Positions 36,919 through 64,000 of a stretch of DNA of 64,000 nucleotides are shown piece by piece. The position numbers were made by a program, and so were the translations under genes. The notes under the pieces were generated by a model. That model worked only from the letters and a program-made list of their open reading frames with translations. It was not told the DNA's origin and did no database searches. The stretch comes from an uncultured Draconibacterium sp. (GTDB lineage: Bacteria; Bacteroidota; Bacteroidia; Bacteroidales; Prolixibacteraceae): positions 496,001-560,000 of the forward strand of contig NZ_OY776413.1 in NCBI RefSeq assembly GCF_963675585.1, read 5' to 3'. Position 1 is the stretch's first letter. Each line of letters begins with the position of its first letter.

Positions 36919-37095
36919 ATGATGAAAAAAACACACAATAGACGCCAACTGACGTATGCATTCTCCGAACAAAAATTTCCGACCATGATATCAAGTAATT
37001 TTCATTTTCCAAAATCTGGAAAATCACATTTCAACACGAAGCTTTTCGTAAGTCTTTTTGTTATTCTTTTTGCGTTTGCAACACAATTAAATGCC
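36919..37095 (+). other. Signal peptide with extended N-terminal head
   Basis: Residues 1-59. The hydrophobic core is LFVSLFVILFAFATQ (42-56), with predicted cleavage after LNA (residue 59). The 40-residue polar head has several Lys, Arg and His. An internal ATG at 36985 (Met23) would give a more normal 37-residue signal and is an alternative start. Confidence 0.75.
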
Positions 37096-40000
37096 CAGCA
37101 GGCATTTATTACAAACAAAGGAGAAAGTACGATTTGCGAAGGAGAGTCAACAACAATACAAGTTATTATAGGTGCAAGTATTGGGCCGTACACAATCGTT
37201 TATTCCGACGGAACCGATGATTTCACGGTATCCAATTATACGAGTAATGCCAACCCGGAAAGTCCTTTATATGGAGGTGCGGCAATATCTGTTTCGCCAA
37301 CAACAACTACAAATTACGAACTAATTAGTGTAAAGGATGCAAATAATTTCTCCTTACCCATTAGTTCTGCGCAAGCTACTGTTTCGGTAAATCCGCTTGT
37401 TGCAAATTTAAGTTTAACAGTGAATTCGGGTAATCCGGTTTGTTACAATACCGATTTTGTAGTTAGCTACACCGCTACTTACGATAGTATTGTAGAATTA
37501 TGGGATGCCGGAAATACTTCAAAAATTGGCGATCTGCCACAAACAATTTCAATAACCGAAAATACAAATTATAAAATACGCGCATACAGTCCAGGCGGAT
37601 GTTTGATTACCGAAAATTTGGCCGTAACACTTGAAAATGTAAATCCAACGGTTACTTGTCCGGGCGATCAAACTTTAAATCCACTTTCAAATTGCCAGGT
37701 TAGCCTACCCGACTATACAAGTATGGTTACTGCACACGATAATTGTACAGCCGACGGCGCATTAGTAATTTCACAGGCACCGGTTGCAGGTACAACTTTA
37801 AGTGGCGACGGCACAATACAAAACGTTGAAATTACTGTTCGCGATGAAGCCGGAAACGAAGCTACCTGCGATTTTGACGTAACGGTTACCGACAGCGAGC
37901 AGCCTGTTATTAATGGTACTGCCGTAAACGAAACAAAAACAAATACCAGCGGAAATTGTGGTTATGTTGTTTCGGGCGCCGAATACGATCCTACTGTTTT
38001 AACCGATAATTGTGCCATTGATAAACTTACCTATTCGATTAACGGCGGAACAGAAAATGGTACAAATGCGTCAACAACGCTTGGCTCTCTACTTTTAGGT
38101 GTTGGCGAAAATGCAATTGTTTGGACTGCCTACGACACCCATGGAAATACCGCAACATGGAGTGTAACAATAACCGTTGAAGACAAAGAAAATCCAACTT
38201 TCGATAATTGTCCGGGGGCACAAAATTTAACAAGCAATTCAGCAGACTGTAATGCGGTTTTGCCCAATTACATTAGTTTATTAAGTATTGCTGCCAGCGA
38301 TAATTGTACCGAATCGGGTACTATCTCACTTTCGCAATCGCCGGTTGCTACCACTGTATTAACTGGCGGGCATGGTTCAACTCAGCTGGTAACAATTACT
38401 GCTGAAGATGAATATGGCAACTCTGCCGACTGTCAGTTTACGGTAACTGTTAACGACGAAACCAACCCAAGTATTACCAACTTACCTTCAAATATTTCAG
38501 CAACTAACGATATTGATGAATGTGGTGCAGTGATATCATGGACAGCACCAACAGCTGATGACAATTGTACAGGATCGACTATTTCGCAAATTGCAGGACC
38601 GGCGAGCGAAACACTTTTCCCGGTTGGAGAGACTACAATTACCTACCGGGCGGAAGATCTGGCCGGCAATATACACGACGAAAGTTTTACAGTTACCATT
38701 ACCGATAATCAAAATCCTGTAATTAGTTGCCCCGGAAATATTTCAGTTGGAGTGGACAGTGGTGAAAATTTTGCAACCGTTAGTTTCACCGCTCCGGAAG
38801 GCATCGACAATTGCGCAGGAGCAAGCACCGTTCAAACAACCGGACTTGCAAGTAATTCTCAATTTCCGGTAGGAACAACAATAAATACTTTTATAGTAAC
38901 CGATGCTGCAGGTAATAAAGATACCTGCAGTTTTGACGTAAGTGTATCGGACGATGGCGCACCTGTTATAATTGACTGCCCTGAAAACATAACAGTAAAT
39001 AACGACGAAGGAAATTGCGATGCAGTAGTTAGCTGGACAGAACCAACAGCAAGCGACAATGCCACGTTAACGGAAAATTTGGTTTGGGACAAGTCGCACA
39101 CTCCGGGAAGTACTTTCCCTGTGGGAACAACAACTGTTACCTACACCGTAACCGATGAATCGGGAAACACAAGTACTCCTTGTAGTTTTACAATAACTGT
39201 AAACGACAACGAAAAGCCTGTAATTTCAAATTGTCCGGCCAATATTTCGCGCACAAGTGCTGCCGGATCATGCTCGGCAAATGTAAACTGGACAGAACCA
39301 ACTGTTAGCGACAATTGCACTTCATCAGCAAATATTGTTTGGGAAAAAAGTCATGAACCCGGCGATTTATTTAATGTTGGTGTTACTTCTGTAACCTACG
39401 TAGCTAAAGATGAAAACGACAATGTAAGCGACACATGCAGGTTCACAATTACCGTGCGCGACGACCAAAAACCAGTAATCGCCAATTGTCCTTCAAATAT
39501 TACCCAGGCAGTGGATGAAGGCGAATGCGACGCACTTGTTACATGGACTGCACCAACCGCCACCGATAATTGTACATCAAGTGACAATCTGATTTGGACC
39601 ATTTCGCCTGAACCAAATTCACCGTTTTCGGTGGGAACAACTACTGTAACTTACAGCGTTAAAGATTCTTCCAATAACACCAGCGCTGTTTGTTCATTCG
39701 ATGTTACCGTAACCGACAGCGAAAATCCAACTGCAGTTTGTAACAATCTGACGATTTATCTTGATGCATCCGGCGAGGCAACCATTTCGGCCACTGATAT
39801 CAATAATAATTCAAGCGACAACTGTACCAGTGCAGCCAACCTCGACTTAAGTATCAATAAATCAACCTTCACTTGTTCGAATCTGGGAGCAAACACTGTT
39901 GTTTTAACTGTTGACGACGAATCGGGCAATACAAACACTTGTAATTCTACAGTTACAGTTCTCGATACCATTCCTCCTGTAATTGTAAGTAAAGCCACAA

Positions 40001-43000
40001 CACAAAACGGCACGGTATATACCGACGCAGATGCTTGCGACTACACAGTAAAAGGAAGCGAATTTGATCCGACCTTAACCGACAACTGTTCAGGTGCAAC
40101 TTTAAGTTATACTGTAAGCGGAGCTACTACATTAAGTGGTACCGGTTCGATGATTGGCGAAAGCCTGAATCCGGGGGTAAATACCATAAGCTGGACAGCT
40201 GTTGATGGCAGTGGAACACCAACTGCCACTGCTTTTGTATTTACAAAAACCGTTGTTGACAATCAGGAGCCAACCCTCTCAAGTATTCCGAACCAATACA
40301 GAAGTGCAACAACAGGATGCGCCTATGTGGCTGTTGGAAATGAATTTGATCCAACTGCATCGGATAATTGCGGCGAAGCCGAATTAACACTTGAATACAA
40401 AATTAACAGCGGCGACTGGACAGAAGGAACAACACTGGCCGGCACTCCCCTGCCGCTTGGAACTACAACCATAAACTGGAGAGCCAGCGACGGAGTCAAT
40501 ACAAAAACCATTTTATTCAGAGTTGAAGTTGTGGATGAAACCGCACCGGTTATTTCTACAATTAGCAACATGAATGTATCAGTAAGTTCGGGTTGTGCGG
40601 TTGCAGTAAGCTGGACCGAACCAACCGTAAGCGACAATTGCGACTCATCTCCACTACTTTCAAAAATCTCAGGACCGGTAAAGGGTGGTTTATTAAACAT
40701 TGGCGTTTACACCGTTAAATACCAGGCCATTGATACTGATGACAATGTATCTGAAATGCAGTTTACAATTACTGTTACCGATCCAACACCACCAAGTATT
40801 ACCTGTGCTTCCGGAAGTACTGAGCTTGCTCCTTTTGAAGAAAACACCGACGATGGGTTGTGCTTTTTCCAGGTTCCCGACCTCAGATTTAATCCTGAAG
40901 TGGTTTCCGATGAATGTTCGTATACATTAACTAATAGTTTTGACCACACAAATACACTTCTTGGTAAACAACTTCCTGTTGGAGAATATCCAATTGTATG
41001 GACAGTTGTGGATTATTCTGGAAATACAAACAGCTGTACGATTTATGTCAAAATAATCGACAATCAATATCCGACATTTACAATTGCCTCTGAACATTTT
41101 GAAAGAAATACCGATCCGGGCGAATGTTTTTACACTGTTCCAAATCCAATTTTCGATCCTTCCGATCTTTCTGACAATTGTGAAATTGACACTGTTTATT
41201 ATGAAATTTCAGGCGGTGCCTACTCTACACCACAAACCGGTGCAAATACACTATCGGGCCATCAAATACCACCAAGTGCAAACGATTATTCGATAAAATG
41301 GACAGTTGTTGACAGCTATGGTTTAACTGTTGAGTCTACTCCTTTTACTTTAAATGTTTCCGACAATCAGGCACCAACCTTTACCTGCTACGGAAATGTC
41401 AGCCGCCAGGCCATTGATGGTTCTTGCGAATATACAATCGTAGGTGCTGAGCTCGATCCAACAGACTTGTCGGACAACTGCGATGCTAACGAAGATATTA
41501 CTTTGGCCTACACGATTAACGGGACACCGGGCGTTGGCGAAACGCTGGATGGCACCACTCTATCCACCGGACCATACACCATTGTTTGGACAGCCACTGA
41601 CACAAAGGGCAACTCACAGAATTGTACCTATAAATTATTCATTTATGACGGCCAGGCACCCACAATATCAACCATAAACGCCCAATCGAGAGATGTGGAT
41701 CCGGGCAAGTGTTACTACGAAGCACACGACGGAGAATTTGATCCGACTTCTACTGATAACTGCGGTGCTGTAACCTTAGTTAACATGCTTAACAATGGTA
41801 CTTCACTCAACGGATACCAGTTCCCCGTTGGACCTACCACTGTAATTTGGCGTGCAACCGATGGTTCTGGCGATACAGAAGAAATGGAGTTTGTTGTAAC
41901 CGTTATTGAAAACGAGCCACCTACATTTGATCTGGCAAGCACTCTCACACGTGAGGCTGTTAGTTCATGTTCGTATACTACAGTTGGTACTGAATTCGAC
42001 CCAACCAATTTAGACGACAATTGTAGTGGTGTTTTCAGCAAAACAAACGACTACAACAACTATAAAACACTGGCCGACGCAGTTTTCCCTGTTGGAACCA
42101 CTACCGTAACATGGACTGTAACCGACCAGCGACTTAATTCGCACCAGGAAACAATTGACATTGTAATAGAAGACAACACTGCACCGGAAATAAATTGTCC
42201 GGAGAACTCATATGTGAGAGTAGTTGATGCAGGACAAAATTATTACACAGTTGGTGTAAACGAGTTTAAACCGGTGGTAAGCGAAAACTGTACACTAACT
42301 TCGTACACCCACAATTACAACGGTGGAGGAACATCTTTGAACGGAATTCAACTTCCTGAAGGTTCTCACACCATTCAATGGACCGCAATCGATAACCACG
42401 GCAATCAATCATCGTGCAATGTTGTTGTACACATCGTTTCATCGATATACCCGCCAATTACATGTCATGGCGACGCCTATGTACCAGTTGACGCAGGAGA
42501 ATGTGATTATACAATTACAGGCACAGCCTACGATGCAACATCAACGTCTTCAGTTGCAACTCTGTCTCACGATTATGGTTCGGGAGGTTCAACCTTAAAC
42601 GGAACAGTATTATCTGTCGGAACCCACCACATTACCTGGACAGCCTCTCAAACAATTGGTGAAAACACCTACGAAACAAGCTGTGAGTTTTACATTACAA
42701 TTTACGACAATCAAGATCCTACAATTACTGCACCCGACGATATTACAATCAATTCCAATTCGGGCTGTTACGCCACCGGAGTTAACCTGGGTACACCCAT
42801 AACCGACGACAACTGCGGAGTATCATCGACCTGGAACAATGCGCCTTCTTCTTATTATTTAGGAACCACCAACGTTACCTGGTGGATAAGCGATTCGTAT
42901 GGAAATGAAGTAAGTGCAGTTCAAAAAGTAACTGTTTTAGACGATGATGCACCTGTTGTAAGTTGTGTTGGCGATGTTTGCCGCGAAGCCGACGACCCAA

Positions 43001-55000: not shown

Positions 55001-58000
55001 TTGATTTTACCGTTACCTTAACAGGTACTGTTCAAAACGATTTCACCATTCAATACGAAACTGAAAACAATACGGCTGATGCACCTGGCGATTACACCGC
55101 CAAATCAGTTGTAACGCTGACTTTCGGTGGTGAAAACGAAAATGTTCAAACAGCCACAATTCAAACCAGCCTTGATACTGAAATTGAACCGGCCGAAACA
55201 TTCTTTGTAAATCTTCTGAACTTAACTACCAACGGTCAGAATGTATCAACTACCAATATTCAGGGTACAGGTACAATTACCGACGACGACCAGGCAAGTA
55301 TTGCAATCAACAATGTAACTGTTGATGAAGCTACAAGTACAATTAATTTCACAGTTACTTTAACAGGTGATGTTAAAAATGAAATTTACATTGACTATGC
55401 AACAGCAAACGGAGCTGCAATAGCAGGTTCCGACTACACAACAAAAAGTGGTCGCCTGTATTTTGGAGCTGCAAATGCAAATTCGCAAAACATAAGCGTA
55501 AGTATTCTGAACAACACCGTGGTTGAACCGGACGAAATTTTTGTGATCAACTTAAGTGGTCTTACCACAAACGGACAAGATGTAATTGTTGCCGATGCAC
55601 AGGGAGAATGTACGATTACTGATGACGATTCAGCCGAATTAACCATCAGCGACCGCACTGTAAACGAAGATGCAGGCACTGCAGTGCTTACTGTAACGCT
55701 TACCAATAATGTACAAAACGCGTTTACGGTTCAGTACAGTACGGCAGACAACACTGCCGAACAACCCGATGATTATACTGCAAAAACAGCGCAAACATTA
55801 TCATTCGGTGCAGCAAATGCCAATTCGCAAACCATTTCAATAACAATCGAAGATGATGATCTGGTTGAAGAAACTGAAAACTTATATACCAGTTTGTCTG
55901 GGTTATCAACTAACGGACAAGCAGTAACGATAAGCGACACAACCGGTGTAATTACAATTACCGACAACGACAATGCATTGGTACGAATTGCTGCCAACGA
56001 CGGCGATGTGGACGAAACCGGAACAAACAACGGTCAGTACCGCGTAAGTTTAAGCCAGTTAAGTTCTACCGCAACAACAATTAGTTATTCGGTTAGTGGA
56101 ACAGCCGGCAGTGACTCAGATTTTACTGCGCTTAGCGGAACAATTACCATTCCGGCCAACACGGCAAGTGCAACAATTGATCTGACCATACTTACCGATG
56201 CCATTGTTGAAGAGAACGAAACCGTAATTGTTACACTGACCGCAATTACAGCGGGCGATGCAGATATTTCGATAGACAATTCGAATAATTCAGCAACGAT
56301 TATGATTCCTGACAACGATGCGGCTGAAGTAACAATTAATAGTCCGCTTGCCGTTGCTGAAGGAAGTGACATTGAATTTACCGTAACCTTAAACAATGCG
56401 GTTGAAGGTGGATTTACAGTTAGCTATTCTACCAACGATGGAACAGCAACCCTTGCAGATTCAGACTACACCGACAATGATAATGAGTTAACTTTTACAG
56501 GAACAATCGGTGAGACAAAAACAATTACCGTTGCAACAAACGACGATGCAATTATTGAAGCAAGCGAAACAATTACAGTTGATTTAGAAGTTATCTCTGA
56601 AACAACAGCCGATGTTATTGTTTCCGTGGCTGCAGGTTCGGGAACAGGTACGATTACCGACAACGACGAAGCGCTTCTTTCAATTGCCAATGCAAGCGAT
56701 GTTGAAGAAGGTGAAGATCTGATTTTCGTTGTAACTGTTGACAAGGCAGTTCAGGGTGGTTTTAAAGTAAGTTATACTACAAACGATGGAACAGCCAAAC
56801 TTGCCGATTCGGATTACATTGATAACGACGGCGAATTAACATTTACTGGCACAGCCGGCGAAACTGATACAATTGTGCTTACTACCAGCGAAGATGTAAT
56901 TGTGGAAGGTAGCGAAGGAATTTCAGTTAGCCTGGGATCAATTCGTGAAAACGGCGGAACGGTTTCTCTTTCGGCCAGCAGTACCGGAACAGGGTTAATA
57001 ACCGACAACGATGCAGCTATTGTTTCAATTAACAATCCGGCAGCCATTACCGAAGGAACAGCTATTCAGTTTGACGTAACAGTTGACAAAGCCGTTCAGG
57101 GAGGATTTACAATTGCCTATGCAAGTAATGATGGTACTGCCGTTTCAGTTGTTCCTGTTGATTTTGGAGCAGTAAACAGCTCGCTTTCATTCACCGGATC
57201 AGCAAACGAAACCCACCCTATCACCATCACAACCACTGATGATGCCTTGTTGGAATACACTGAAAACTTCACGATTGTTCTGGGAGCCATTAGTGTAACT
57301 TCTGCCGATGTAAGTGTTTCTTCAGGCAATGGAACCGGAACCGGAACAATTAATGATAACGACAATGCTTCACTTGCCATTGCCGATGTAAGTATTACTG
57401 AAGGCGGCGATGCTGAATTCATTTTAATAGTAACGGGTGCCGTCCAGGATGGATTTACAATCGATTATCAAACGGCTGACGGAACAGCAAAAGATACCGA
57501 CGGCGATTACAACAACGACAACGGTACTTTAACTTTTGTGGGTACCAACGGTGAAAAAGATACGATTACAATTTCTACTCTGGATGACAGCTATCTGGAA
57601 CTAAGCGAAACTTTCGTTCTGAACCTGAGCAACATCAGCAATACAAATATCACGTATGACAATCAGGCAAGCGCTGAAATTGCTGATAACGATGCAGCAG
57701 AACTTACGGTTTCTGATCAAACGGTAACCGAAGGCGGCACAGCTACATTTACAGTTGTATTAAGTGCAAATGTTCAGGGAAGCTTTACCATTAATTATGC
57801 AACTGCTGATTCTTCTGCTTTGAATGTTTCGGATTATACTGCAAATTCAGGTACATTAACATTCAACGGAAACGCAAACGAATCGTATTCGATTAATGTT
57901 CCAACTACCAACAACAACATTACTGAACCGGATGAAGCATTTAAACTGCTCTTCTCATCCATTTCAAATGTTTTGGTTGGTTTCAATTCAAAAGCCGTTG

Positions 58001-61000
58001 GCACAATTGAAGACAACGATGCAGCTACAGTAAGTTTAACAGGTTTCACAGTTACTGAAACCGAAGCCAACCAGGTGAAAAACTTTACGGTTAGCATGAC
58101 TAAAGTGGCGCAGGAAGATGTGGAAATTGGTTTATTAATTACGCCGAACACCGCAGTAATTACAAGCGACTATTTGGTAACAAATACCAGCGCAACCATT
58201 TTGGCCGGTCAAAATTCAGTAACAATACCAATTACCATAGTTGGCGATGAAATTGTTGAAGGTGCTGAAGATTTTACAGCAACAATATCAGTTACCGAAG
58301 ACAATAGTCAGGATGTAACAACCAATGTTGCAGAGCAAACAATAACAATTACCGACAACGATGCGGCTCTGCTTTCGATTAACTCTCCTGCTTCGGTTGA
58401 AGAAGGAAGCACAATTACATTCACAGTTACGCTTGATAAAGCAGTTCAGAGTGGTGTTTCTGTTACTTACTCGTTAAGCGACGGCACTGCGGTTCAACCG
58501 GGTGATTACACCGATGCTTCGGGTACGCTTACCTTCGACGGTACTGCCGGTGAAACCGAAACGTTTACCGTAACTACCATCAACGATGACATACTTGAAC
58601 TGACCGAAACATTAACTGCTACACTGGGAACAATTTCCGGTAATGCAGGTAGTGTAAGTCTGGGTACTGCATCGGGTACAGGTACTATTACCGATAACGA
58701 CGAAGCAAGTATTTCAATTGCCGATGTTACTGTTGACGAAGACGATGGAACAGCTACATTAACCGTTACTTTGACAGGTGATGTGGAAGAAACCTTCAGT
58801 GTAAATTATGCAACGTCAAACGTTTCGGCCATTGCTGGTACTGATTATTCAGCTGCAAGCGGAACGCTTACTTTCCCTGAAAATTCAAACGACGGGGCGA
58901 CGCAAACATTTACTGTTGCAATTACAAACGACGAGGTGATTGAGCAAAGCGAAGAATTAATGCTTACGCTAAGCAACATCACCGGTGGTCTGGTGACTAT
59001 TGCCGATACTTTTGCTACTGTTACAATTACTGATAATGATACCGCGACAATTTCGATTGCAGGTACTACAGTGAATGAAGCAGCGGGTACGGCTACTTTC
59101 ACCCTTACTTTAACCGGTACGGTGGAAGAAAACTTCACCGTTCAGTACCAGACTGCAGATAACTCGGCGGTTGCTCCGAACGATTATACAACTGTTGCTC
59201 CTACCTCGTTAACCTTTGGTGGTGCAAACAATAACAGCCAGGATGTTACCGTAACAATTATCAACGATGAGGTGATTGAAGGTACCGAAAGCTATTATGT
59301 AAGTCTGCTCAACCTTTCTGCAAATGGTCAGAATGTATTGATTGAAGATACTACAGCTCTTGGTTCGATTACCGACAACGATGCGGCTCTGCTTTCGATT
59401 AATTCTCCTGCTTCGGTTGAAGAAGGTAATTCGATTACTTTCACCGTAACTCTTGATAAAGCGGTTCAGAGTGGTGTTTCTGTTACTTACTCCTTAAGCG
59501 ACGGCACTGCGGTTCAACCGGGTGATTACACCGATGCTTCGGGTACGCTTACCTTCGACGGTACTGCAGGTGAAACCGAAACATTTACCATAACTACCAT
59601 AAACGATGACATACTTGAACTTACCGAAACATTAACTGCTACACTGGGAACAATTTCCGGTAATGCAGGTAGTGTAAGCCTTGGAACTGCATCGGGTACA
59701 GGTACGATTACCGATAACGACGATGCAAGTATTTCAATTGCCGATGTTACTGTGGATGAAGACGACGGAACAGCTACATTAACCGTTACTTTGGCGGGTG
59801 ATGTGGAAGAAACCTTCAGCGTAAATTATGCAACGTCAAACGTTTCTGCCATTGCAGGTACCGATTATTCAGCTACCAGCGGAACACTTACTTTCCCTGT
59901 AAACTCGAACGACGGGGCGACGCAAACATTTACTGTTGCCATTACAAACGACGAGGTGATCGAGCAAAGCGAAGAATTAATGCTTACGCTAAGCAACATC
60001 ACAGGTGGTCTGGTGACTATTGCCGATACTTTTGCTACTGTTACAATTACTGATAACGATACCGCGACAATCTCGATTGCAGGTACTACAGTAAATGAAG
60101 CAGCGGGTACGGCTACTTTCACGCTTACTTTAATCGGTACAGTGGAAGAAGAATTTACAGTTCAGTACCAGACTGCAGATAACTCGGCTGTTGCTCCGAA
60201 CGATTACACAACTGTTGCGCCAACTTCGTTAAGCTTTGGTGGTGCAAACAACAACAGCCAGGATGTTACCGTAACAATTATCAACGACGAGGTGATTGAA
60301 GGTACCGAAAGCTATTACATAAGTCTGCTCAACCTTTCTGCAAATGGTCAGAATGTATTGATTGAAGATACCACAGCTCTTGGTTCAATTACCGACAACG
60401 ACGCGGCTCTGCTTTCGATTAATTCTCCTGCTTCGGTTGAAGAAGGTAACTCCATTACTTTCACCGTTACGCTTGATAAAGCAGTTCAGAGTGGTGTTTC
60501 TGTGACTTACTCATTAAGCGACGGCACTGCGGTTCAACCGGGTGATTACACCGATGCTTCGGGTACGCTTACCTTCGACGGTACTGCAGGTGAAACAGAA
60601 ACATTTACCGTAACTACCATAAACGATGACATACTTGAACTTACCGAAACATTGACTGCTACACTGGGTACAATTTCCGGTAATGCAGGTAGTGTAAGTC
60701 TGGGTACTGCATCGGGTACAGGTACGATTACCGATAACGACGAAGCAAGTATTTCAATTGCCGATGTTACTGTGGATGAAGACGATGGTACAGCTACATT
60801 AACCGTTACTTTGACAGGTGATGTGGAAGAAACCTTCAGTGTAAATTATGCAACGTCAAACGTTTCGGCCATTGCAGGTGCTGATTATTCAGCTGCAAGC
60901 GGAACACTTACTTTCCCTGTAAACTCGAACGACGGGGCGACGCAAACATTTACTGTTGCCATTACAAACGACGAGGTGATCGAGCAAAGCGAAGAATTAA

Positions 61001-64000
61001 TGCTTACGCTAAGCAACATCACAGGTGGTCTGGTGACTATTGCCGATACTTTTGCTACTGTTACAATTACTGATAACGATACCGCGACAATCTCGATTGC
61101 AGGTACTACAGTAAATGAAGCAGCAGGTACGGCTACTTTCACCCTTACTTTAACAGGTACAGTGGAAGAAAACTTCACGGTTCAATACCAGACTGCAGAT
61201 AACTCGGCGGTTGCTCCGAACGATTACACAACTGTTGCGCCAACTTCGTTAACCTTTGGTGGTGCAAACAACAACAGCCAGGATGTTACCGTAACAATTA
61301 TCAACGACGAGGTGATTGAAGGTACCGAAAGCTATTACATAAGTCTGCTCAACCTTTCTGCAAATGGTCAGAATGTATTGATTGAAGATACCACAGCTCT
61401 TGGTTCAATTACCGACAACGATGCGGCTCTGCTTTCGATTAATTCTCCTGCTTCGGTGGAAGAAGGTAATTCGATTACTTTCACCGTAACTCTTGATAAA
61501 GCGGTTCAGAGTGGTGTTTCTGTTACTTACTCGTTAAGCGACGGCACTGCGGTTCAACCGGGTGATTACACCGATGCTTCGGGTACGCTTACCTTCGATG
61601 GTACTACAGGTGAAACCGAAACATTTACCGTAACTACCATAAACGATGACATACTTGAACTTACCGAAACATTAACTGCTACACTGGGTACAATTTCCGG
61701 TAATGCGGGTAGTGTAAGTCTGGGTACTGCATCGGGTACAGGTACGATTACCGATAACGACGAAGCAAGTATTTCAATTGCCGATGTTACTGTTGATGAA
61801 GACGACGGTACAGCTACATTAACCGTTACTTTGGCGGGTGATGTGGAAGAAACCTTCAGTGTAAATTATGCAACGTCAAACGTTTCGGCCATTGCAGGTG
61901 CTGATTACTCAGCTGCAAGCGGAACGCTTACTTTCCCTGTAAATTCAAACGACGGGGCGACGCAAACATTTACTGTTGCCATTACAAACGACGAGGTGAT
62001 TGAGCAAAGCGAAGAATTATTGCTCACGCTAAGCAACATCACCGGTGGCCTGGTGACTATTGCAGATACTTTTGCTACTGTTACAATTAATGATAATGAT
62101 ACCGCGACAATTTCAATCAATTCACCATTAAGTGTTACAGAAGGAAACAATGTAACCTTTACGGTTACTGTTGACAAAGCAGTACAAGGTGGATTTACCG
62201 TAAATTATGGAACAGTAAACGGAACGGCAACAACGGCAGGATCTGATTATACGGCTAACAGTAATTCAATTGACTTCTCTGGCACTGCCGGCGAAACAAA
62301 AACGATTACCGTTCTTACCAATAATGATGAAATTGTGGAGAGTACCGAGAACTTTAGTGTTTCTCTGAATTCGGTGTCCAATCATGTTGGCGAGGTTACT
62401 ATTTCTGAGTCAAATGGACAAGGAACTGCTACCCTACTCGACAATGACAATGCTACCATCACCATCGCAAATGTTAGTGGTGCCGAAAATGGAGGCGACA
62501 TAACGCTAACGCTTGTTCTTGACAAAGCGGTTGCTGAAGCATTCACGGTAGACGTAAATACTTCTGATGGTACGGCTGATGCCGCGGATTACACTGACAT
62601 TGTAGATGAAACAGTTCATTTTGCTGGTACTGCACAAGATTCTCAGACTGTAACTTTCACTCCGGTTAATGATGACATTCTCGAATACGATGAAACTGTA
62701 TTAGTTGCCTTATCTAACTTATCCACTGCTTTGGCTGTCGATATTTCCGATAATGCAATAATTACAATTACAAATGATGATTCAGCAGAATTGACAATCA
62801 ATGATCAGTCCGCAACCGAAGGCGAAAATGTGAGTTTCACTTTAGAATTGACCAACGATGTACAGGAAGATGTTGTAGTTGATGTAACATTTGCAAATGG
62901 AACTACCGAAACCGGTGATTTTACAAACACAACTCAGTCTGTTACATTTGCCGGAGGAACAAAAGGAACCAAAACCATTAACGTTCCAACAAATGCGGAT
63001 ACCTTCCTTGAAACAGATGAAACTTTCACTGCAAGTATTAATGTAACATCCGGAAATTCGGCCATCGATGATTCGGATACCGGTATCGGAACAATTATCG
63101 ATAACGACAGTGCGAATGTTACCATTACAGATGCAGCAGTGGATGAAGGATCAAATCTGATCTTCTACCTGACTTTATCAAACAATGTGGAAGGTGATGT
63201 TTCAATCGATGTATCATTCGAAAATACAACAACATCGGATAACGACTTTGATGCAACAACACAAACAATAACGTTTGCAGGTGGTGCCGCGGGAACTAAA
63301 ACAGTAACAGTTCCAACCTCTGACGATAACACGGTGGAACCCGATGAAACGTTATTAGCTCGTCTGGCACTCGTTTCCGGAAATATCGAAATAAATACAG
63401 CTGATACTGCTATTGGTACTATTCGTAACGAAGATGTTTCGGAAGTAAGCATCGTGGCAACTACGCAGGCCGGTGAGCCTTCTTCGGATGGATTGTTTAC
63501 ACTGACGCTTTCGAATCCGGTGAGCACAGCTACACTGGTGACTTTTGCCATCTCGGGTACTGCCACCGAAGGAACTGACTTTGCTACAATCGGTACAACT
63601 GTGACCATTCCGGCGGACAGCACAAGTGCTACACTGGATGTAACTGTAATTGATGATAACATTGTTGAAACAGGTGGCGAGACTGTTCTGGCTGCCCTGC
63701 TTTCTACAAATACTGCAGTGACTGTTGCAACAGCGGATTCGGCTACAATTACAATTGCCGATGAAGATGTTTCGGAAGTTAGTATCGTGGCAACTACGCA
63801 GGCCGGTGAACCTTCTTCGGACGGATTGTTTACACTGACGCTTTCCAATCCGGTGAGCACAGCAACTCAGGTGACTTTTGCCATCTCGGGTACTGCCACC
63901 GAAGGAACTGACTTTGCTACAATCGGAACTACGGTTACCATTCCTGCAGACAGCACAAGTGCAACGCTGGATGTAACAGTAATTGATGATAACATCGTTG
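36919..64000 (+). CDS. Giant multi-domain secreted surface protein (HYR + Calx-beta), 3' end outside the window
   Basis: One reading frame runs from the ATG at 36919 to the window edge without a stop, at least 9,027 codons. An in-frame TAA at 36913 fixes the upstream limit. Order of parts: a signal peptide with a long 40-residue head (residues 1-59), two or three Ig-like modules, about 45 HYR-type modules of 80-100 residues, then at least 41 Calx-beta modules of about 113 residues. The chain is very acidic and rich in Thr, Asp and Asn. HYR modules mediate adhesion in other surface proteins, and Calx-beta modules bind calcium at their ends (DND). The likely role is a calcium-stiffened adhesin or matrix protein exported through Sec and then probably the type IX system, whose C-terminal signal would be outside the window. 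Confidence 0.93.
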   Translation, partial: MMKKTHNRRQLTYAFSEQKFPTMISSNFHFPKSGKSHFNTKLFVSLFVILFAFATQLNAQQAFITNKGESTICEGESTTIQVIIGASIGPYTIVYSDGTDDFTVSNYTSNANPESPLYGGAAISVSPTTTTNYELISVKDANNFSLPISSAQATVSVNPLVANLSLTVNSGNPVCYNTDFVVSYTATYDSIVELWDAGNTSKIGDLPQTISITENTNYKIRAYSPGGCLITENLAVTLENVNPTVTCPGDQTLNPLSNCQVSLPDYTSMVTAHDNCTADGALVISQAPVAGTTLSGDGTIQNVEITVRDEAGNEATCDFDVTVTDSEQPVINGTAVNETKTNTSGNCGYVVSGAEYDPTVLTDNCAIDKLTYSINGGTENGTNASTTLGSLLLGVGENAIVWTAYDTHGNTATWSVTITVEDKENPTFDNCPGAQNLTSNSADCNAVLPNYISLLSIAASDNCTESGTISLSQSPVATTVLTGGHGSTQLVTITAEDEYGNSADCQFTVTVNDETNPSITNLPSNISATNDIDECGAVISWTAPTADDNCTGSTISQIAGPASETLFPVGETTITYRAEDLAGNIHDESFTVTITDNQNPVISCPGNISVGVDSGENFATVSFTAPEGIDNCAGASTVQTTGLASNSQFPVGTTINTFIVTDAAGNKDTCSFDVSVSDDGAPVIIDCPENITVNNDEGNCDAVVSWTEPTASDNATLTENLVWDKSHTPGSTFPVGTTTVTYTVTDESGNTSTPCSFTITVNDNEKPVISNCPANISRTSAAGSCSANVNWTEPTVSDNCTSSANIVWEKSHEPGDLFNVGVTSVTYVAKDENDNVSDTCRFTITVRDDQKPVIANCPSNITQAVDEGECDALVTWTAPTATDNCTSSDNLIWTISPEPNSPFSVGTTTVTYSVKDSSNNTSAVCSFDVTVTDSENPTAVCNNLTIYLDASGEATISATDINNNSSDNCTSAANLDLSINKSTFTCSNLGANTVVLTVDDESGNTNTCNSTVTVLDTIPPVIVSKATTQNGTVYTDADACDYTVKGSEFDPTLTDNCSGATLSYTVSGATTLSGTGSMIGESLNPGVNTISWTAVDGSGTPTATAFVFTKTVVDNQEPTLSSIPNQYRSATTGCAYVAVGNEFDPTASDNCGEAELTLEYKINSGDWTEGTTLAGTPLPLGTTTINWRASDGVNTKTILFRVEVVDETAPVISTISNMNVSVSSGCAVAVSWTEPTVSDNCDSSPLLSKISGPVKGGLLNIGVYTVKYQAIDTDDNVSEMQFTITVTDPTPPSITCASGSTELAPFEENTDDGLCFFQVPDLRFNPEVVSDECSYTLTNSFDHTNTLLGKQLPVGEYPIVWTVVDYSGNTNSCTIYVKIIDNQYPTFTIASEHFERNTDPGECFYTVPNPIFDPSDLSDNCEIDTVYYEISGGAYSTPQTGANTLSGHQIPPSANDYSIKWTVVDSYGLTVESTPFTLNVSDNQAPTFTCYGNVSRQAIDGSCEYTIVGAELDPTDLSDNCDANEDITLAYTINGTPGVGETLDGTTLSTGPYTIVWTATDTKGNSQNCTYKLFIYDGQAPTISTINAQSRDVDPGKCYYEAHDGEFDPTSTDNCGAVTLVNMLNNGTSLNGYQFPVGPTTVIWRATDGSGDTEEMEFVVTVIENEPPTFDLASTLTREAVSSCSYTTVGTEFDPTNLDDNCSGVFSKTNDYNNYKTLADAVFPVGTTTVTWTVTDQRLNSHQETIDIVIEDNTAPEINCPENSYVRVVDAGQNYYTVGVNEFKPVVSENCTLTSYTHNYNGGGTSLNGIQLPEGSHTIQWTAIDNHGNQSSCNVVVHIVSSIYPPITCHGDAYVPVDAGECDYTITGTAYDATSTSSVATLSHDYGSGGSTLNGTVLSVGTHHITWTASQTIGENTYETSCEFYITIYDNQDPTITAPDDITINSNSGCYATGVNLGTPITDDNCGVSSTWNNAPSSYYLGTTNVTWWISDSYGNEVSAVQKVTVLDDDAPVVSCVGDVCREADDPTATHYSVNGTELDKYSYYDCSSVTITNSYNGSNSLAGENIPVGDHSITWTFTDAATNVSSCTMNLSIYSTEAPSVTCRTDIWVATNEGVCSYTVNGAEYDVAYYSAGGATLTNNINGTATLAGEVLTRGPHDIIWTATENGFSNTCCTYTITVYDNEDPVPTWPDDVTVDADAGTCQATNVPVGTPSFTDNCDAPEAVVYSRTPSGTTFSVGTHTIYWTAHDTHGNYISHNQTITVNDVESPVIDCPSNRYYLEFDNLSVDYASIYGTSSYRPTVTEDCSLTSYVHDYDGGGTSLHGERLSIGDHAITWTATDASDNTDNCTINFTIYDSFDPLISCVEDQTLFSTEGECGYLVAADELDAVYTSLSVVPGRTLTHDYAEASSNTTLAGEILPPGQHIITWTAAQTIDGTEYTKSCTTIIDVIDTIAPTVDPWPEDITTTIDPGKCYASGVDLGTPNASDNCDIGDLTTVTNAPAQFELGTTRVVWRIYDTDGNQTTHTQNVTVTDNEAPVFANCPSNIVLISGEDNCEAVANWIPPTVSDSCSGIKSLLPNYPPGTSFPLGIDTIVYTATDFSDNVSTCSFTVTVNDEAPTITCIEDQTRNTNPNTCSYKVLGNEFDPESYSDNCGIASRTYSLTDATGLKTGSNSLSGVIIERPDNIAGEVVPVEITWIVTDASGLADTCTFSLSIEDNEGPVISVPGNQVRSTDPGKNYYTIQGDEFDDVVASDACGIVTKLENEFELESLDGQILHLGNDSIMWYAIDDYGNRSEAAFIILIKDTEAPTIETTPGDFTVYTSGSCEAVVTYTAPTFADNVDGSGLAGTLVSESNTASGETFPIGETDVTFVYTDAAGNTLSHTFTVTVVDNEDPYIVCPVGSPFSDTTDIDKAYYTVQGTEYDPTSYGDNCGASIVNDFNNLPSLSGARLPVGQTVITWTITDSYGATQDCAITVNVADIQAPEPPSCPEEVVARNSTIGDCGYLISGAEYDPYNLKDNHGIARLTYSIDGGAEVGTDKSTTIGGLVLPVSTDLNPSTNILWRIYDLSENVISTCTSEFTITDIEAPVVLTVADQIKSTDAGESFYTIISENNWDASVTDNCEVETIVYSIDGGEYVGTDETTTIVGQTLSVGTHTILWKATDIYGLTDSSSFDVVIKDTEDPSIVCNPLTIELDASGAYTLDQADIDSISLGSSDASGIDTKTVVPNEFDCNDVGSNSALLVVTDIYGNESECLTTIVVEDNTAPTIVTKNTTVELDVLGNASILVSDINNGSSDACGIQSLVAGQTSFDCDDLGDVTVSLTVTDVNGNSTSENATVTVEDNINPVAICKNINVYLDASGNATITGSDIDFGSSDNCSLTLTATPSTFNCGDIGTNNVTLRAEDAAGNFDECTARVTVIDSTAPTQVCQDISVNLDATGNATITANQIDNGSFDACGFSLAIDQTDFSCENIGNNTVTLSVTDNNNNTSTCTSTVTIVDNQLPSAICQDLTIQLDASGNASITAAQVDNGSSDVCSDVTLSLDKYDFTCSDVGEKSVLLTVTDESENAQTCTSTVTVEDVTNPVATCQDITVQLDGTGNTSITAGQIDNGSSDACGIKSLSVSPNTFTCNESGENTVTLTVTDNNDNTATCTATVTVVDNIDPLAACTPITIQLDAAGTYTLSETDINTLSAGSSDNCAITVRSVTPNSFDCDDIGSPVAVTLTVSDATGNSDNCATTITVEDNIDPTVVCQSQTINLEASGNISLAATSIDNGSSDACGIASYQISKDNTSYAENLSYDCSEIGSHTIYLKVTDNNGNSAVCSSATVTVQDNAKPVFTFCPVDQTPAVGTDVGECTYQHLDDIWNATADDNCTVSSLTYALSGATTKADNPANTSLNGQVFEKGTTTVTWTANDGYQTEICTFDVVITDDEDPVAVCKTNTVYLERSGTVSVTPDTINNGSSDNCPASVLTISETENGSYQSALEYSCADIGVQTIWLKITDEEGNVNTCSTTITITDDQIPNVDAEDIADLSKETNNACTYVHGDTNWDPTDNCDASPIIHYALSGATVVADDLANTSLNGVAFNTGTTTVTWTVEDHAVPANTGTVTFDVVVSDDDAPSITCQSNLTKSITVQGQASLVVNEADGLTAPTHSDNCSVTSLAWEITGAGVVDDPTTGSVSNPTSGVSNPLDGYEFKVGTSTITYTVSDEAGNTDDCSFTIIINSNPSDFTISESEITTYENQTLSPATFTVVLPYQPSGNVCIDVASSNIAEGKVNTANNRSGAAETKQICFTPSDYDQPQTIYVFGVNDDVDDDDQLYNVSFTIDTDNTDIGSGYYNGAPANVTATNTDDDVAGITVSACSNTSEAGGSGTFTVVLNTEPTEDVSFALEIDAADLTEGQITSAGTITFNASNWDQPQTVTLQGLDDDIDDGNQAYDINILNASSSDSKYDGLFGTTVSATNIDNDAAGYTVSAISNQIDEDGTTATFTVKLNSKPATDTENYVVYVDIASNDEGEGTVSTSQINFDHTNWNTNQTITVTGINDDVVDGYIDFSILLTTNTTSTTDNAYDALDPNDVSARNNDNDAATITINNPSISEGNSGTTTLTFTVTQSDIQVIDGYSVGYFTNPVSAIAGSDFVGAGSYIYFDGDANETQTIDITINGDETLEKNEVFTIFLFEPTTTLNKDVSTTSNTGTGTILNDDAATFTISDPALFTELNSGTSEMVFTVTLSDSVEVGAGNFITVDYATSDGTATDADNDYEAETGTISFVGQPGEEQTFSITINGDQKVELDETFTATISNIQCSSLPPAILSQITFADDEATGTIDNDDSAELSISGVTVNESAGTADFTIQMSTDVQDAFTIDFTTSNNTAESGTDYTTVTKTGGTAISFGNGTTTQTVTIPILDGSITEQTESFYGTISNIIDGSNQDISFNTTQASIIITDNDAATIAFDSDITVNEADGTATFTVNLSGSIQDEISFTYKTSDAGGANSTTVVQDYVALNSTMTFVAGSSNTSHSFDVTINNGVIAEPTETYFIDLSALVKVGDANITFFDGHAVGTITDNDEVKITLHAFADVTETDAAQTANFYVSQDIASQYPITLLFSSQAQTIVSAVSTGDFSAQTDVTVTLPAGSTSNVNVAATTIAGDNISEQSETFEGILVFADKKAQLASFTSGGDTAVATILDDDIIQLTLEDKTVTETDGTQSINYILSSDIAAEEDFVLSFGTSDNTAVDGNDFTDQDNTTITFLHGTTSLNIPVDVLGDDVTEPTETFTGTVTMTNANGQQYNFVQSTATYTIEDDDPAVISLSEFTYNESQVGTDLAQFTITLSKNVQNEFTVDFTTSDIAGEALDGADYTAVALTDATALKFGASNDLVQYVTVAINNDSWVEPTETLLGTLSNLQSLLQAVTFSNSESTLAVTSTINDNDAATVAIDSVALDEDEGPAVFTVTLTGDIQDELTVDFATTDGTAVQVNDYIYQNGTVTFPATSLSGTTQTISVVLVNDAISEPLTETFRVELDNIVSTGSASMNDDTGLCTITDEDPVTQINLTGFTESELDADQNYNFLAKMDKVAQEPITISFTTTQGTAEHGTDFTAQSSVIYTILPGTDSVNIPVTVIADNTCEPQESFTGTITLVEANGQIVSIGTDVATGTINDDDPAIISISGFDVNENAGTADFTVEISTDVQEDVTVIFETADNSAVNGAGLDYTEVLPTTLTFGPSNDLSQTVSVTINDDTYLEPTEQLTGHIRNLSAASQSVTLDGGGATAEANGIIQDNDAAELTVSDQTITEGGTAQFTVELSANVQGSFTIDYTTNDVSALSASDYTAQTNTLTFNGNAGESYTINVPTTDNSISEPEETFELNFSDISNALVTYDAQAIGTIEDNDAAVVSLSGFSVTETDVNQLKNFTVNMTKEAQEDVVLSFTITPNSAVATGDYIIFATSVTIPHGSTSVTVPITIVGDLVAEPTEDFAATLAITNNGAQDISEGTVEQTITITDNDAATLAINSPAAQIEGNEIDFTVTLTGTVQNDFTIQYETENNTADAPGDYTAKSVVTLTFGGENENVQTATIQTSLDTEIEPAETFFVNLLNLTTNGQNVSTTNIQGTGTITDDDQASIAINNVTVDEATSTINFTVTLTGDVKNEIYIDYATANGAAIAGSDYTTKSGRLYFGAANANSQNISVSILNNTVVEPDEIFVINLSGLTTNGQDVIVADAQGECTITDDDSAELTISDRTVNEDAGTAVLTVTLTNNVQNAFTVQYSTADNTAEQPDDYTAKTAQTLSFGAANANSQTISITIEDDDLVEETENLYTSLSGLSTNGQAVTISDTTGVITITDNDNALVRIAANDGDVDETGTNNGQYRVSLSQLSSTATTISYSVSGTAGSDSDFTALSGTITIPANTASATIDLTILTDAIVEENETVIVTLTAITAGDADISIDNSNNSATIMIPDNDAAEVTINSPLAVAEGSDIEFTVTLNNAVEGGFTVSYSTNDGTATLADSDYTDNDNELTFTGTIGETKTITVATNDDAIIEASETITVDLEVISETTADVIVSVAAGSGTGTITDNDEALLSIANASDVEEGEDLIFVVTVDKAVQGGFKVSYTTNDGTAKLADSDYIDNDGELTFTGTAGETDTIVLTTSEDVIVEGSEGISVSLGSIRENGGTVSLSASSTGTGLITDNDAAIVSINNPAAITEGTAIQFDVTVDKAVQGGFTIAYASNDGTAVSVVPVDFGAVNSSLSFTGSANETHPITITTTDDALLEYTENFTIVLGAISVTSADVSVSSGNGTGTGTINDNDNASLAIADVSITEGGDAEFILIVTGAVQDGFTIDYQTADGTAKDTDGDYNNDNGTLTFVGTNGEKDTITISTLDDSYLELSETFVLNLSNISNTNITYDNQASAEIADNDAAELTVSDQTVTEGGTATFTVVLSANVQGSFTINYATADSSALNVSDYTANSGTLTFNGNANESYSINVPTTNNNITEPDEAFKLLFSSISNVLVGFNSKAVGTIEDNDAATVSLTGFTVTETEANQVKNFTVSMTKVAQEDVEIGLLITPNTAVITSDYLVTNTSATILAGQNSVTIPITIVGDEIVEGAEDFTATISVTEDNSQDVTTNVAEQTITITDNDAALLSINSPASVEEGSTITFTVTLDKAVQSGVSVTYSLSDGTAVQPGDYTDASGTLTFDGTAGETETFTVTTINDDILELTETLTATLGTISGNAGSVSLGTASGTGTITDNDEASISIADVTVDEDDGTATLTVTLTGDVEETFSVNYATSNVSAIAGTDYSAASGTLTFPENSNDGATQTFTVAITNDEVIEQSEELMLTLSNITGGLVTIADTFATVTITDNDTATISIAGTTVNEAAGTATFTLTLTGTVEENFTVQYQTADNSAVAPNDYTTVAPTSLTFGGANNNSQDVTVTIINDEVIEGTESYYVSLLNLSANGQNVLIEDTTALGSITDNDAALLSINSPASVEEGNSITFTVTLDKAVQSGVSVTYSLSDGTAVQPGDYTDASGTLTFDGTAGETETFTITTINDDILELTETLTATLGTISGNAGSVSLGTASGTGTITDNDDASISIADVTVDEDDGTATLTVTLAGDVEETFSVNYATSNVSAIAGTDYSATSGTLTFPVNSNDGATQTFTVAITNDEVIEQSEELMLTLSNITGGLVTIADTFATVTITDNDTATISIAGTTVNEAAGTATFTLTLIGTVEEEFTVQYQTADNSAVAPNDYTTVAPTSLSFGGANNNSQDVTVTIINDEVIEGTESYYISLLNLSANGQNVLIEDTTALGSITDNDAALLSINSPASVEEGNSITFTVTLDKAVQSGVSVTYSLSDGTAVQPGDYTDASGTLTFDGTAGETETFTVTTINDDILELTETLTATLGTISGNAGSVSLGTASGTGTITDNDEASISIADVTVDEDDGTATLTVTLTGDVEETFSVNYATSNVSAIAGADYSAASGTLTFPVNSNDGATQTFTVAITNDEVIEQSEELMLTLSNITGGLVTIADTFATVTITDNDTATISIAGTTVNEAAGTATFTLTLTGTVEENFTVQYQTADNSAVAPNDYTTVAPTSLTFGGANNNSQDVTVTIINDEVIEGTESYYISLLNLSANGQNVLIEDTTALGSITDNDAALLSINSPASVEEGNSITFTVTLDKAVQSGVSVTYSLSDGTAVQPGDYTDASGTLTFDGTTGETETFTVTTINDDILELTETLTATLGTISGNAGSVSLGTASGTGTITDNDEASISIADVTVDEDDGTATLTVTLAGDVEETFSVNYATSNVSAIAGADYSAASGTLTFPVNSNDGATQTFTVAITNDEVIEQSEELLLTLSNITGGLVTIADTFATVTINDNDTATISINSPLSVTEGNNVTFTVTVDKAVQGGFTVNYGTVNGTATTAGSDYTANSNSIDFSGTAGETKTITVLTNNDEIVESTENFSVSLNSVSNHVGEVTISESNGQGTATLLDNDNATITIANVSGAENGGDITLTLVLDKAVAEAFTVDVNTSDGTADAADYTDIVDETVHFAGTAQDSQTVTFTPVNDDILEYDETVLVALSNLSTALAVDISDNAIITITNDDSAELTINDQSATEGENVSFTLELTNDVQEDVVVDVTFANGTTETGDFTNTTQSVTFAGGTKGTKTINVPTNADTFLETDETFTASINVTSGNSAIDDSDTGIGTIIDNDSANVTITDAAVDEGSNLIFYLTLSNNVEGDVSIDVSFENTTTSDNDFDATTQTITFAGGAAGTKTVTVPTSDDNTVEPDETLLARLALVSGNIEINTADTAIGTIRNEDVSEVSIVATTQAGEPSSDGLFTLTLSNPVSTATLVTFAISGTATEGTDFATIGTTVTIPADSTSATLDVTVIDDNIVETGGETVLAALLSTNTAVTVATADSATITIADEDVSEVSIVATTQAGEPSSDGLFTLTLSNPVSTATQVTFAISGTATEGTDFATIGTTVTIPADSTSATLDVTVIDDNIV
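37096..37641 (+). other. N-terminal Ig/PKD-like modules of the giant protein
   Basis: About 180 residues before the first HYR module. The opening ITNKGESTICEGESTTIQV and the later SVSPTTTTNYEL are typical of the Ig-like/PKD-type modules found in Bacteroidota gliding and adhesion proteins. A second module starts near VNPLVANLSL and ends with NYKIRAYSPGGC. Confidence 0.65.
39724..39972 (+). repeat. Isolated DASG-type HYR module
   Basis: A single copy of the LDASG / SSDNC / FTCSNLG module type that otherwise occurs as a block at 46.5-48.4 kb. Its lone position among ordinary HYR modules points to shuffling or translocation of a module inside the gene. Confidence 0.65.
46471..48423 (+). repeat. 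Block of eight DASG-type HYR modules
   Basis: Eight consecutive modules of 79-84 residues share LDASGNATI near the start, NGSSDACG in the middle, a Cys-containing strand (FxCxDxG), and VTVEDN at the end. Starts lie near 46486, 46738, 46975, 47212, 47449, 47689, 47929 and 48181. They are more alike than the surrounding HYR modules. A ninth, diverged copy lies near 48745. Confidence 0.8.
54286..58380 (+). repeat. Older duplication of a Calx-beta block
   Basis: The modules at 54286-54960 (AELTVSDQTITEGGTAQFTV, then VVSLSGFSVTETDVNQ) reappear at about 57706-58370 (AELTVSDQTVTEGGTATFTV, then ATVSLTGFTVTETEANQ), 3,420 bp later. DNA differs at many positions, so this event predates the 1,020-bp amplification. 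Confidence 0.7.
58351..62112 (+). repeat. 1,020-bp tandem repeat, about 3.7 copies (three Calx-beta modules per unit)
   Basis: The phrase ATGCGGCTCTGCTTTCGATT (one base variable) recurs at 58361, 59381, 60401 and 61421, exactly 1,020 bp apart (340 codons). Each full unit encodes three Calx-beta modules (LLSINSPASVEEG, ASISIADVTVDEDDG, ATISIAGTTVNEAAG). The fourth unit stops after two modules, at about 62112. Copies differ mostly at third codon positions, and the stretches 59941-60060 and 60961-61080 are identical base for base. Confidence 0.93.
63430..64000 (+). repeat. 333-bp tandem repeat of a Calx-beta module, continuing past the window
   Basis: GAAGATGTTTCGGAAGT occurs at 63430 and 63763, 333 bp (111 codons) apart. 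The module SIVATTQAGEPSSDGLFTL is repeated almost unchanged, and the second copy is cut by the window end. More copies probably follow. Confidence 0.88.

Follow-up and report, generated by a model that had tools for sequence, protein, structure and literature searches.

The 64,000-base window analysed here (G000:C3:496001-560000, from a Draconibacterium genome, G000, of 6,032,436 bases in 4 contigs) carries most of the gene for a protein of 11,524 aa, which is probably a T9SS type B substrate forming a long, statically anchored surface fibre with a Calx-beta inner half and an HYR outer half. Comparison with relatives indicated that the outer half keeps its number of modules, next to an inner stalk that changes its length by tandem duplication.

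Extent and setting of the giant gene

The ORF listing gave a forward-strand frame with an ATG start at 36919..63999, encoding 9,027 aa with its 3' end open. Translation was stop-free up to the window end, and the window contains no N. On the same contig, the gene (36919..64000, forward strand) runs on to a stop at C3:567493 (extended coordinate 71493), 7,493 bases beyond the window end. The original prediction of a single giant HYR/Calx-beta frame, open from 36919 to the last base, was thus borne out by the ORF listing, the translation and the downstream sequence, and the downstream stop codon that it proposed to look for closes the protein at 11,524 aa. The G+C content of the gene is 43.5%, compared with 38.5% for window 1-36918. 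A motif scan of the gap before the gene gave one match to TAnnTTTG, the Bacteroidota-type -7 motif, at 36624, a single and weak match. Further upstream, window 30400-34155 encodes a fused hydantoinase A/B protein of 1,251 aa, which adjoins an Nramp transporter gene and showed no link to the fibre. The prediction had also placed the gene among the largest in bacteria; it is indeed large but not the record, the Calx-beta/TIGR04131 protein of Kordia antarctica having 16,944 aa (PMC7477175). The features of the locus are as follows.

35022..36185, forward: gene for a DUF819 membrane protein, the upstream neighbour of the giant gene
36186..36918, forward: gap of 733 bases 5' of the giant gene (ORF limits)
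36919..37098, forward: signal-peptide-like region, aa 1-60, a long n-region followed by a hydrophobic stretch, KLFVSLFVILFAFATQLNA, judged by eye
37099..37656, forward: distal tip, aa 61-246, two predicted Ig-like beta-sandwich domains (alignment, AlphaFold2, Foldseek)
37657..49590, forward: 45 HYR modules, aa 247-4224, cysteine-rich (iterated local HMM and Pfam)
49630..63999, forward: Calx-beta modules 1-41 and the start of module 42, aa 4238-9027 (57 in total, to aa 10727)
58354..62088, forward: higher-order tandem array of Calx-beta triplets, period 1,020 bases
63430..64000, forward: start of a 333-base (one-module) tandem array; the whole is L009:1430-6338, with 4,338 bases beyond the window
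L009:9463-10470 (C3:567463-568470), same direction as the giant gene and next to it: porP/sprF carrier gene (TIGR03519, 254.6 bits, cut-off 90.55)
L009:10489-11745, 18 bases after the carrier gene: porE-like gene (NF052230)

The C-terminus and its partner genes

The membrane-proximal part of the protein contains Big_9, cadherin-like and tandem-95 domains, followed by the T9SS C-terminal domain that the prediction had suggested seeking downstream. It is of type B, with 57.8 bits for TIGR04131 (cut-off 35) and 82 bits for Pfam CHU_C (cut-off 27). The carrier frame as listed encodes 335 aa and overlaps the end of the giant gene by 31 bases; a start 30 codons later, without overlap, is also compatible with the alignment of relatives. 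Type B substrates often, though not always, have a cognate PorP/SprF gene immediately downstream. The next protein, of 418 aa, matched positions 3-417 of the 648 in NF052230 with 241.4 bits and is called PorE-like rather than PorE because this score lies below the curated cut-off of 600. A full-length PorE is encoded elsewhere in the genome (C4:3122369-3124294; 686.1 bits against 600), and a DUF2817 gene on the opposite strand follows the porE-like gene.

The PorE-like protein consists of TPR and propeller parts (mean pLDDT of the model 90.0), and the first ten fold matches of the model were all TolB structures with a TM-score of about 0.4. Alignment with 24 homologues revealed that it ends at the end of the propeller, the carboxypeptidase-regulatory-like and OmpA parts being absent. 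Pfam analysis detected OmpA in none of the four partners in Draconibacterium operons with this giant protein (G000, G034, G013, G036) and in all five others scanned (G030, G018 and G021 of the same genus, G043 of the same family, G053 of the same order). The G003 partner, of 422 aa and G036-like, was outside this Pfam set. When a local OmpA model was applied to the 70 downstream proteins of 300 aa or more, 61 had the domain; the nine lacking it were those of G000, G034, G013, G036, L059 (the G036 record), L063, L087, L110 and L124 (cut by the contig end). Giant size was rejected as the reason for the loss, since an uncultured Polaribacter pairs an 8,169-aa protein with an OmpA-bearing PorE-like protein, and in the Bacteroidetes bin G086 a partner with OmpA accompanies a frame of no fewer than 6,785 aa. 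In G043 the HYR/Calx-beta gene appears split across two contigs, and the partner on the second contig bears OmpA. With giant proteins elsewhere paired in this way, the OmpA loss looks like a trait of one clade.

The main alternative to static anchoring is that the protein glides, as an SprB-type adhesin transported along the cell by a T9SS-powered track; we consider this unlikely, although it keeps some force. The sorting class is that of SprB, and a sprF-like gene adjoins; two GldK genes over cut-off and a GldJ-like protein (371.3 bits, under the cut-off of 458.2) point to a putative T9SS/gliding track in the G000 genome; and in F. johnsoniae the type B C-terminal domain of SprB alone is described as enough for movement (PMC12618676). 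However, SprF, which carries SprB in F. johnsoniae, bonds the moving track protein GldK through a C-tail Cys-X-Cys that it needs for gliding (PMC12635249), and the Draconibacterium carrier contains no cysteine at all, hence no such motif. The F. johnsoniae protein Fjoh_3952, which has a porE-like gene in its operon, is described as static and SprB, without one, as moving, and the proposed rule is that type B proteins with an operon porE-like gene are static (PMC12618676, PMC9143113); the operon studied here has such a gene, and those F. johnsoniae type B proteins that were tested and move lack one. By analogy with these systems, a static protein is favoured over a gliding one. At G000:C4:4173490-4180750, two GldK-type genes that both score over the curated cut-off lie near each other and adjoin a PorP/SprF-like gene.

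Both arguments carry qualifications. A C-tail Cys-X-Cys was found in none of the eight PorP/SprF-like loci of G000 (seven over cut-off), and in a control within the last 40 residues at 5 of 25 such loci from four flavobacterial genomes. Because no carrier in G000 passes this flavobacterial test although track proteins are encoded, the test may fail to separate static from mobile carriers in this order, where gliding may use another link than Cys-X-Cys. Among relatives of the carrier the motif was absent from the last 60 residues of all 80 frames (the best 80 of 110 loci), a survey that is not a control, its members being recruited by similarity to the G000 carrier and a few clearly not being carriers. 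The static model is itself weakened because it rests on PorE binding peptidoglycan, and the OmpA domain is missing here.

The HYR outer half

Modules were counted with a local HMM, seeded from one Pfam-positioned module per kind and iterated on the G000 protein, which detected 45 HYR modules (aa 247-4224) and 57 Calx-beta modules (aa 4238-10727). Pfam was applied to aa 1-9027 and 10362-11524, and the local model covered aa 9028-10361, the 333-base array. Taken alone, Pfam was more cautious: 18 HYR and two Calx-beta stretches passed E 0.01 singly in aa 1-4833, and 37 Calx-beta stretches were detected in aa 4451-9027, with whole-piece scores of 662.3 bits for HYR and 1432.4 bits for Calx-beta. 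The predicted figures of about 45 HYR-type and at least 41 Calx-beta modules agree with the local counts, 41 of the latter being complete in the window and the 42nd cut by its end.

The protein contains 153 cysteines, with 3 before the HYR array, 135 within it, 7 in the Calx-beta part (aa 4225-10727) and 8 after. Conservation was analysed in seven proteins, G000 and six relatives with a readable outer half, from three genera and two families. In the outer block (tip and HYR modules), 129 of the 138 G000 cysteines are invariant in all seven, compared with invariance of 40.6% for D, 42.6% for G, 46.1% for P and 67.4% for W. This concentration and invariance lend good support to the predicted disulphide-type stalk, in which the cysteines would be paired in disulfide bonds.

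All seven proteins (G000, G013, G036, G034, G003, G043 and G352) contain 45 HYR modules in the same order. The HYR model, built on the G000 protein, could favour like counts; the outer-block lengths, 4,123-4,190 aa, agree independently. Outer-block identity is 47-62%, outside the close pairs G036/G003 (98.9%) and G013/G034 (95.6%). Module pairing gave mean scores of 168-259 in register and at most 93 out of register when the two very close pairs and G352 were set aside; for G352 against G000 the values were 190.8 and at most 84.2. Reciprocal in-register best pairs numbered 44 of 45 for G000 with G036 or G003, and 23-30 of 45 for more distant pairs. Dynamic programming matched G352 modules 1 to 45 with G000 modules 1 to 45; G352 also has a 46th HYR match, a 28-residue one located past the Calx-beta region at a distance of 2,308 residues.

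Two further genomes were left out of the seven. The 37 modules of G116 were not accepted as breaking the rule of 45: the frame stops some 120 bases short of a contig edge, HYR-like sequence continues to that edge in another frame, and residues 35-3564 are collinear with residues 37-3561 of G043. The G132 frame, with 8 HYR modules, runs into a contig edge.

The Calx-beta inner half

Comparison of the in-window part of the Calx-beta half with PDB sequences matched 10 distinct sequences of Na/Ca exchanger calcium-binding domains at E ≤0.001 (best 3e-10), suggesting that the stalk may bind calcium. A loose pattern for an acidic end motif matched 46 of the 57 modules. In the 1,020-base array, successive copies are 93.9%, 96.4% and, for the last, 79.1% identical; the 333-base array comprises 14.7 copies with 92% matches.

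Genes read whole contain 57 (G000), 37 (G013) and 35 (G036) Calx-beta modules. In G003, 61 precede a contig end, and two frames at the opposite end add 4 and 34; G352 has 18; in G034 the first frame contains 24, with others in broken frames; and G043 has 2 on the fetched stretch and 13 on another contig. Array periods differ by lineage. Those of G000 are 1,020 and 333 bases and those of G013 mainly 342 bases or a multiple of this; G003 has a 342-base array with 99.6% identity across about 9.8 kb. Each of G000 modules 1-13 has a one-to-one partner in G013, as have 21 of the first 23 in G036; neither genome offers separate counterparts of modules 41-55. Judged from these comparisons, the Calx-beta number varies, from 18 to at least 61, through near-identical tandem arrays that are local and lineage-specific. 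The counts depend on the assemblies. At least 61 modules are present in G003, whose outer block is 98.9% identical to that of G036, so the 35 found in G036, a metagenome bin, may partly reflect a collapsed array.

The composition of this half, 14.8% acidic and 1.0% basic residues, bears on a second alternative, a matrix or cell-to-cell cohesion protein that cross-links neighbours instead of acting as a substrate adhesin. Such acidic modules could be calcium-bridged between fibres, and Pfam detected no lectin or carbohydrate-binding domain in aa 1-9027 and 10362-11524. A type B domain with a cognate PorP-like protein would, however, be expected to retain the protein on its own cell (PMC9143113), with which cohesion is still compatible; we regard this role as improbable, and less probable than gliding.

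The N-terminal region and distal tip

The G013, G034 and G036 homologues have similarly long starts. The tip aligned with three homologues at 48-55% identity, and no ligand-binding family was recognised in it. An AlphaFold2 model of aa 61-323 had a mean pLDDT of 75.7, with ten-residue blocks at 86-95 across the first hundred residues and 64-89 across the next eighty. Foldseek analysis of the tip model returned 130 matches at E ≤0.001, of which the top six were all fragments of GhpA, the grappling-hook protein of Aureispira (E 5.4e-08 to 1.3e-06).

A third alternative is a prey-capturing hook like GhpA. The T9SS-secreted hook protein of ixotrophic predators is, we presume from PDB titles, GhpA. 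These hooks are heptamers of a T9SS-secreted protein, according to a review (PMC11205867), and the six best fold matches point the same way. The TM-scores of those matches are 0.41-0.48 (by query length) with rmsd >10 Å, however, and many eukaryotic Ig proteins follow GhpA in the list; the match would thus reflect a shared Ig-like multi-domain shape only. Homology to GhpA was rejected at the sequence level, where neither aa 1-4233 at E 0.001 nor the tip profile at E 1 gave any match to PDB sequences, GhpA chains included. A hook function is very unlikely.

Integrity of the giant frame

The probability of 11,524 stop-free random codons at the base composition of the region is about 10^-320. At the same locus in G013, where shared flanks were checked, the homologue of 9,237 aa is unbroken, as is that of 9,017 aa in G036. 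In the first 13 neighbouring comparisons of 333-base copies, pS was 0-0.31 and pN 0-0.042; one pair was identical, and in the 12 that differed pS was several times pN. The 14th pair is diverged (pS 0.45, pN 0.22). This pattern would be expected of a translated, constrained protein, and the unbroken homologues and the excess of silent over replacing change among tandem copies together support the frame as a real gene. That its length is an assembly artefact, or that it is expressed as several products, is the least probable of the alternatives: 333-base copies of identical DNA (6, 10 and 13; 11 and 12) are not placeable by short reads and the homologous frame of G034 is broken into 7,022, 475, 491 and 1,654 aa and shorter frames, but the long homologues are unbroken in independent assemblies, seven assemblies each contain 45 HYR modules, and silent change exceeds replacing change.

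The G034 gene, at about G034:C1 1131943-1161279 (L041-L043), is broken within its Calx-beta array in a one-contig genome, and could be a pseudogene, a switchable gene or an assembly error. Long antisense frames of 108-353 aa occur throughout the 333-base array (L009:1165-5856, minus strand; in the window, 63165-63860 and 63355-63999); they are expected if the repeat unit is stop-free on the other strand and are probably not genes.

Distribution and locus

Among 36 other genomes of the genus, carrier relatives at 71-74% identity were found in G034, G013, G036 and G003. A scan of the named genomes with a single carrier sequence gave no relative; an alignment query gave the loci of which the best 80 of 110 are described above. 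A profile of the tip matched near full length in 8 of 140 family genomes (G000, G013, G034, G036, G003, G116, G043, G132), with partial matches only in ten further ones. Of 295 genomes sampled from the order, two matched, G000 itself and, from another family, G352. On these searches, the distribution of the giant protein is narrow and patchy.

The flanks of G013 share with G000 the Nramp, hydantoinase, DUF819, DUF2817 and GpsA genes at 72-83% identity. DUF819 and GpsA are common to G034 and G000, and DUF819 and DUF2817 to G030; the DUF819 neighbour is 83-84% identical in G013, G034 and G030. In G036 the giant gene, carrier and PorE-like gene (L047-L049) lie in a genomic context unlike that of G000, G013 and G034: of six neighbouring-gene queries against 60 kb around the operon, only PorE-like matched, and DUF819 was not found. 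The outer-block tree joins G000 with G036, yet by its carrier G036 stands nearer G013 and G034 (81-82%) than G000 (71%). This disagreement, together with the G036 context, suggests possible recombination or movement of cassette parts.

G030 departs from the count of 45 in another way: at the corresponding locus (C1:574301-590428; L051-L053), DUF819 and a related carrier (55%) flank a different protein of 5,375 aa, with 4 HYR modules, no Calx-beta and its own 930-base array. Here the surface protein is exchanged within constant flanks. The protein adjoining the carrier in G087 has 3,422 aa, 4 HYR and 0 Calx-beta modules. In G352 (C1:62489-89420; L225, L226), 45 HYR and 18 Calx-beta modules are followed by a masked stretch and then a frame whose C-terminal sorting domain is of type A (TIGR04183). 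A single downstream frame was tested; it matched no family, hence no PorP/SprF was found there. The arrangement is possibly the same rod on another anchor, with the masked stretch lying between the two frames.

Proposed working of the fibre

In the static reading, which we prefer, the protein would be exported by Sec via its signal peptide and would cross the outer membrane via the T9SS, with the type B C-terminal domain, which was detected, as its guide. The dedicated PorP/SprF-like barrel encoded by the overlapping next gene would then capture it, the C-terminus staying at the membrane and the N-terminus pointing outwards, as in tested homologues. The predicted order from the membrane outwards is the Big_9/cadherin-like part, the Calx-beta stalk of calcium-binding type, the cysteine-rich rod of 45 HYR modules and the Ig-like tip. 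The TPR and beta-propeller protein of the neighbouring gene probably retains the carrier; in the Draconibacterium clade this protein would have no peptidoglycan grip of its own because it is without an OmpA domain. Such an anchor would keep the carrier in the outer membrane without gripping the wall, unless a second protein supplies the grip. Scaling from SprB (6,497 aa, about 200 nm) gives a length on the order of 350 nm for the fibre, and its function would be adhesion, to reach and hold a substrate or a neighbouring cell.

A fuller joint reading is put forward tentatively, as somewhat less probable than not. The 45 HYR modules would form a standardised, disulfide-locked rod of fixed number and fixed order, each position being its own lineage, at about 50% identity across three genera and two families; the Calx-beta stalk would be adjustable by tandem duplication and set the reach; the same rod would perhaps stand on two anchors (type A in G352); and the Draconibacterium anchor would have been freed from the wall by OmpA loss.

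Novelty and comparison with known systems

Giant Calx-beta type B proteins are already known, from Kordia antarctica (PMC7477175). The literature searched (partly the best 20 of 40, 15 of 151 and 10 of 2,049 matches, with few subscription papers covered) contained no report of a constant HYR number, of the giant protein itself or of an OmpA-less PorE beside a giant adhesin. As far as these searches show, a constant 45-HYR outer half beside a freely varying Calx-beta half, near-total cysteine conservation in that outer half and an OmpA-less PorE-like partner are new; an SprF-like carrier lacking the two cysteines through which SprB is linked to the gliding track also looks new. Repeat number usually varies in repeat-built bacterial adhesins, so that an array of 45 domains conserving number, order and cysteines next to a freely expanding one constitutes a natural experiment on fibre-length control. 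It allows a test of whether selection on reach keeps the HYR number constant or whether divergence of the sequences, by stopping slippage, is enough to do so. The OmpA-less partner, for its part, is a test of the prevailing idea that PorE ties static type B adhesins to peptidoglycan.

The Kordia antarctica protein, of 16,944 aa from a 50,835-base gene, resembles the Draconibacterium protein in its very long Calx-beta arrays, predicted signal peptide, TIGR04131 end and a gene G+C content off that of the genome; by description it has >100 copies of the single Pfam domain Calx-beta, to which the Draconibacterium protein adds a 45-module HYR half (PMC7477175). Giant adhesins stabilised by disulfides or calcium are described elsewhere (PMC10619420, PMC5380327). 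That of Mobiluncus mulieris (7,651 residues, 51 Ig-like domains) is likewise, by description, a long Ig-like chain with internal covalent bonds including disulfides, but also has ester, isopeptide and thioester bonds (PMC10619420). GhpA of Aureispira (several PDB entries, 9flp to 9fly) is again a long Ig-like chain and the best fold match of the tip, without detectable sequence similarity to the Draconibacterium protein. SprB of Flavobacterium johnsoniae (6,497 aa; PMC9870892) shares the T9SS type B, repeat-built surface filament and an adjoining SprF carrier gene; unlike the Draconibacterium system, with its cysteine-free carrier and porE-like neighbour, it moves, its carrier bears Cys-X-Cys (PMC12635249) and, as far as PMC9143113 and PMC12618676 describe it, it has no porE-like neighbour. 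The static type B systems Fjoh_3952/Fjoh_3951/Fjoh_3950 and PG1035/PorP/PorE differ in that the Draconibacterium PorE-like protein stops after the propeller, without a carboxypeptidase-regulatory-like or OmpA domain; they are otherwise built of the same parts, and the Fjoh operon has them in the same order of type B protein, PorP-like carrier and PorE-like protein (PMC12618676, PMC9143113).
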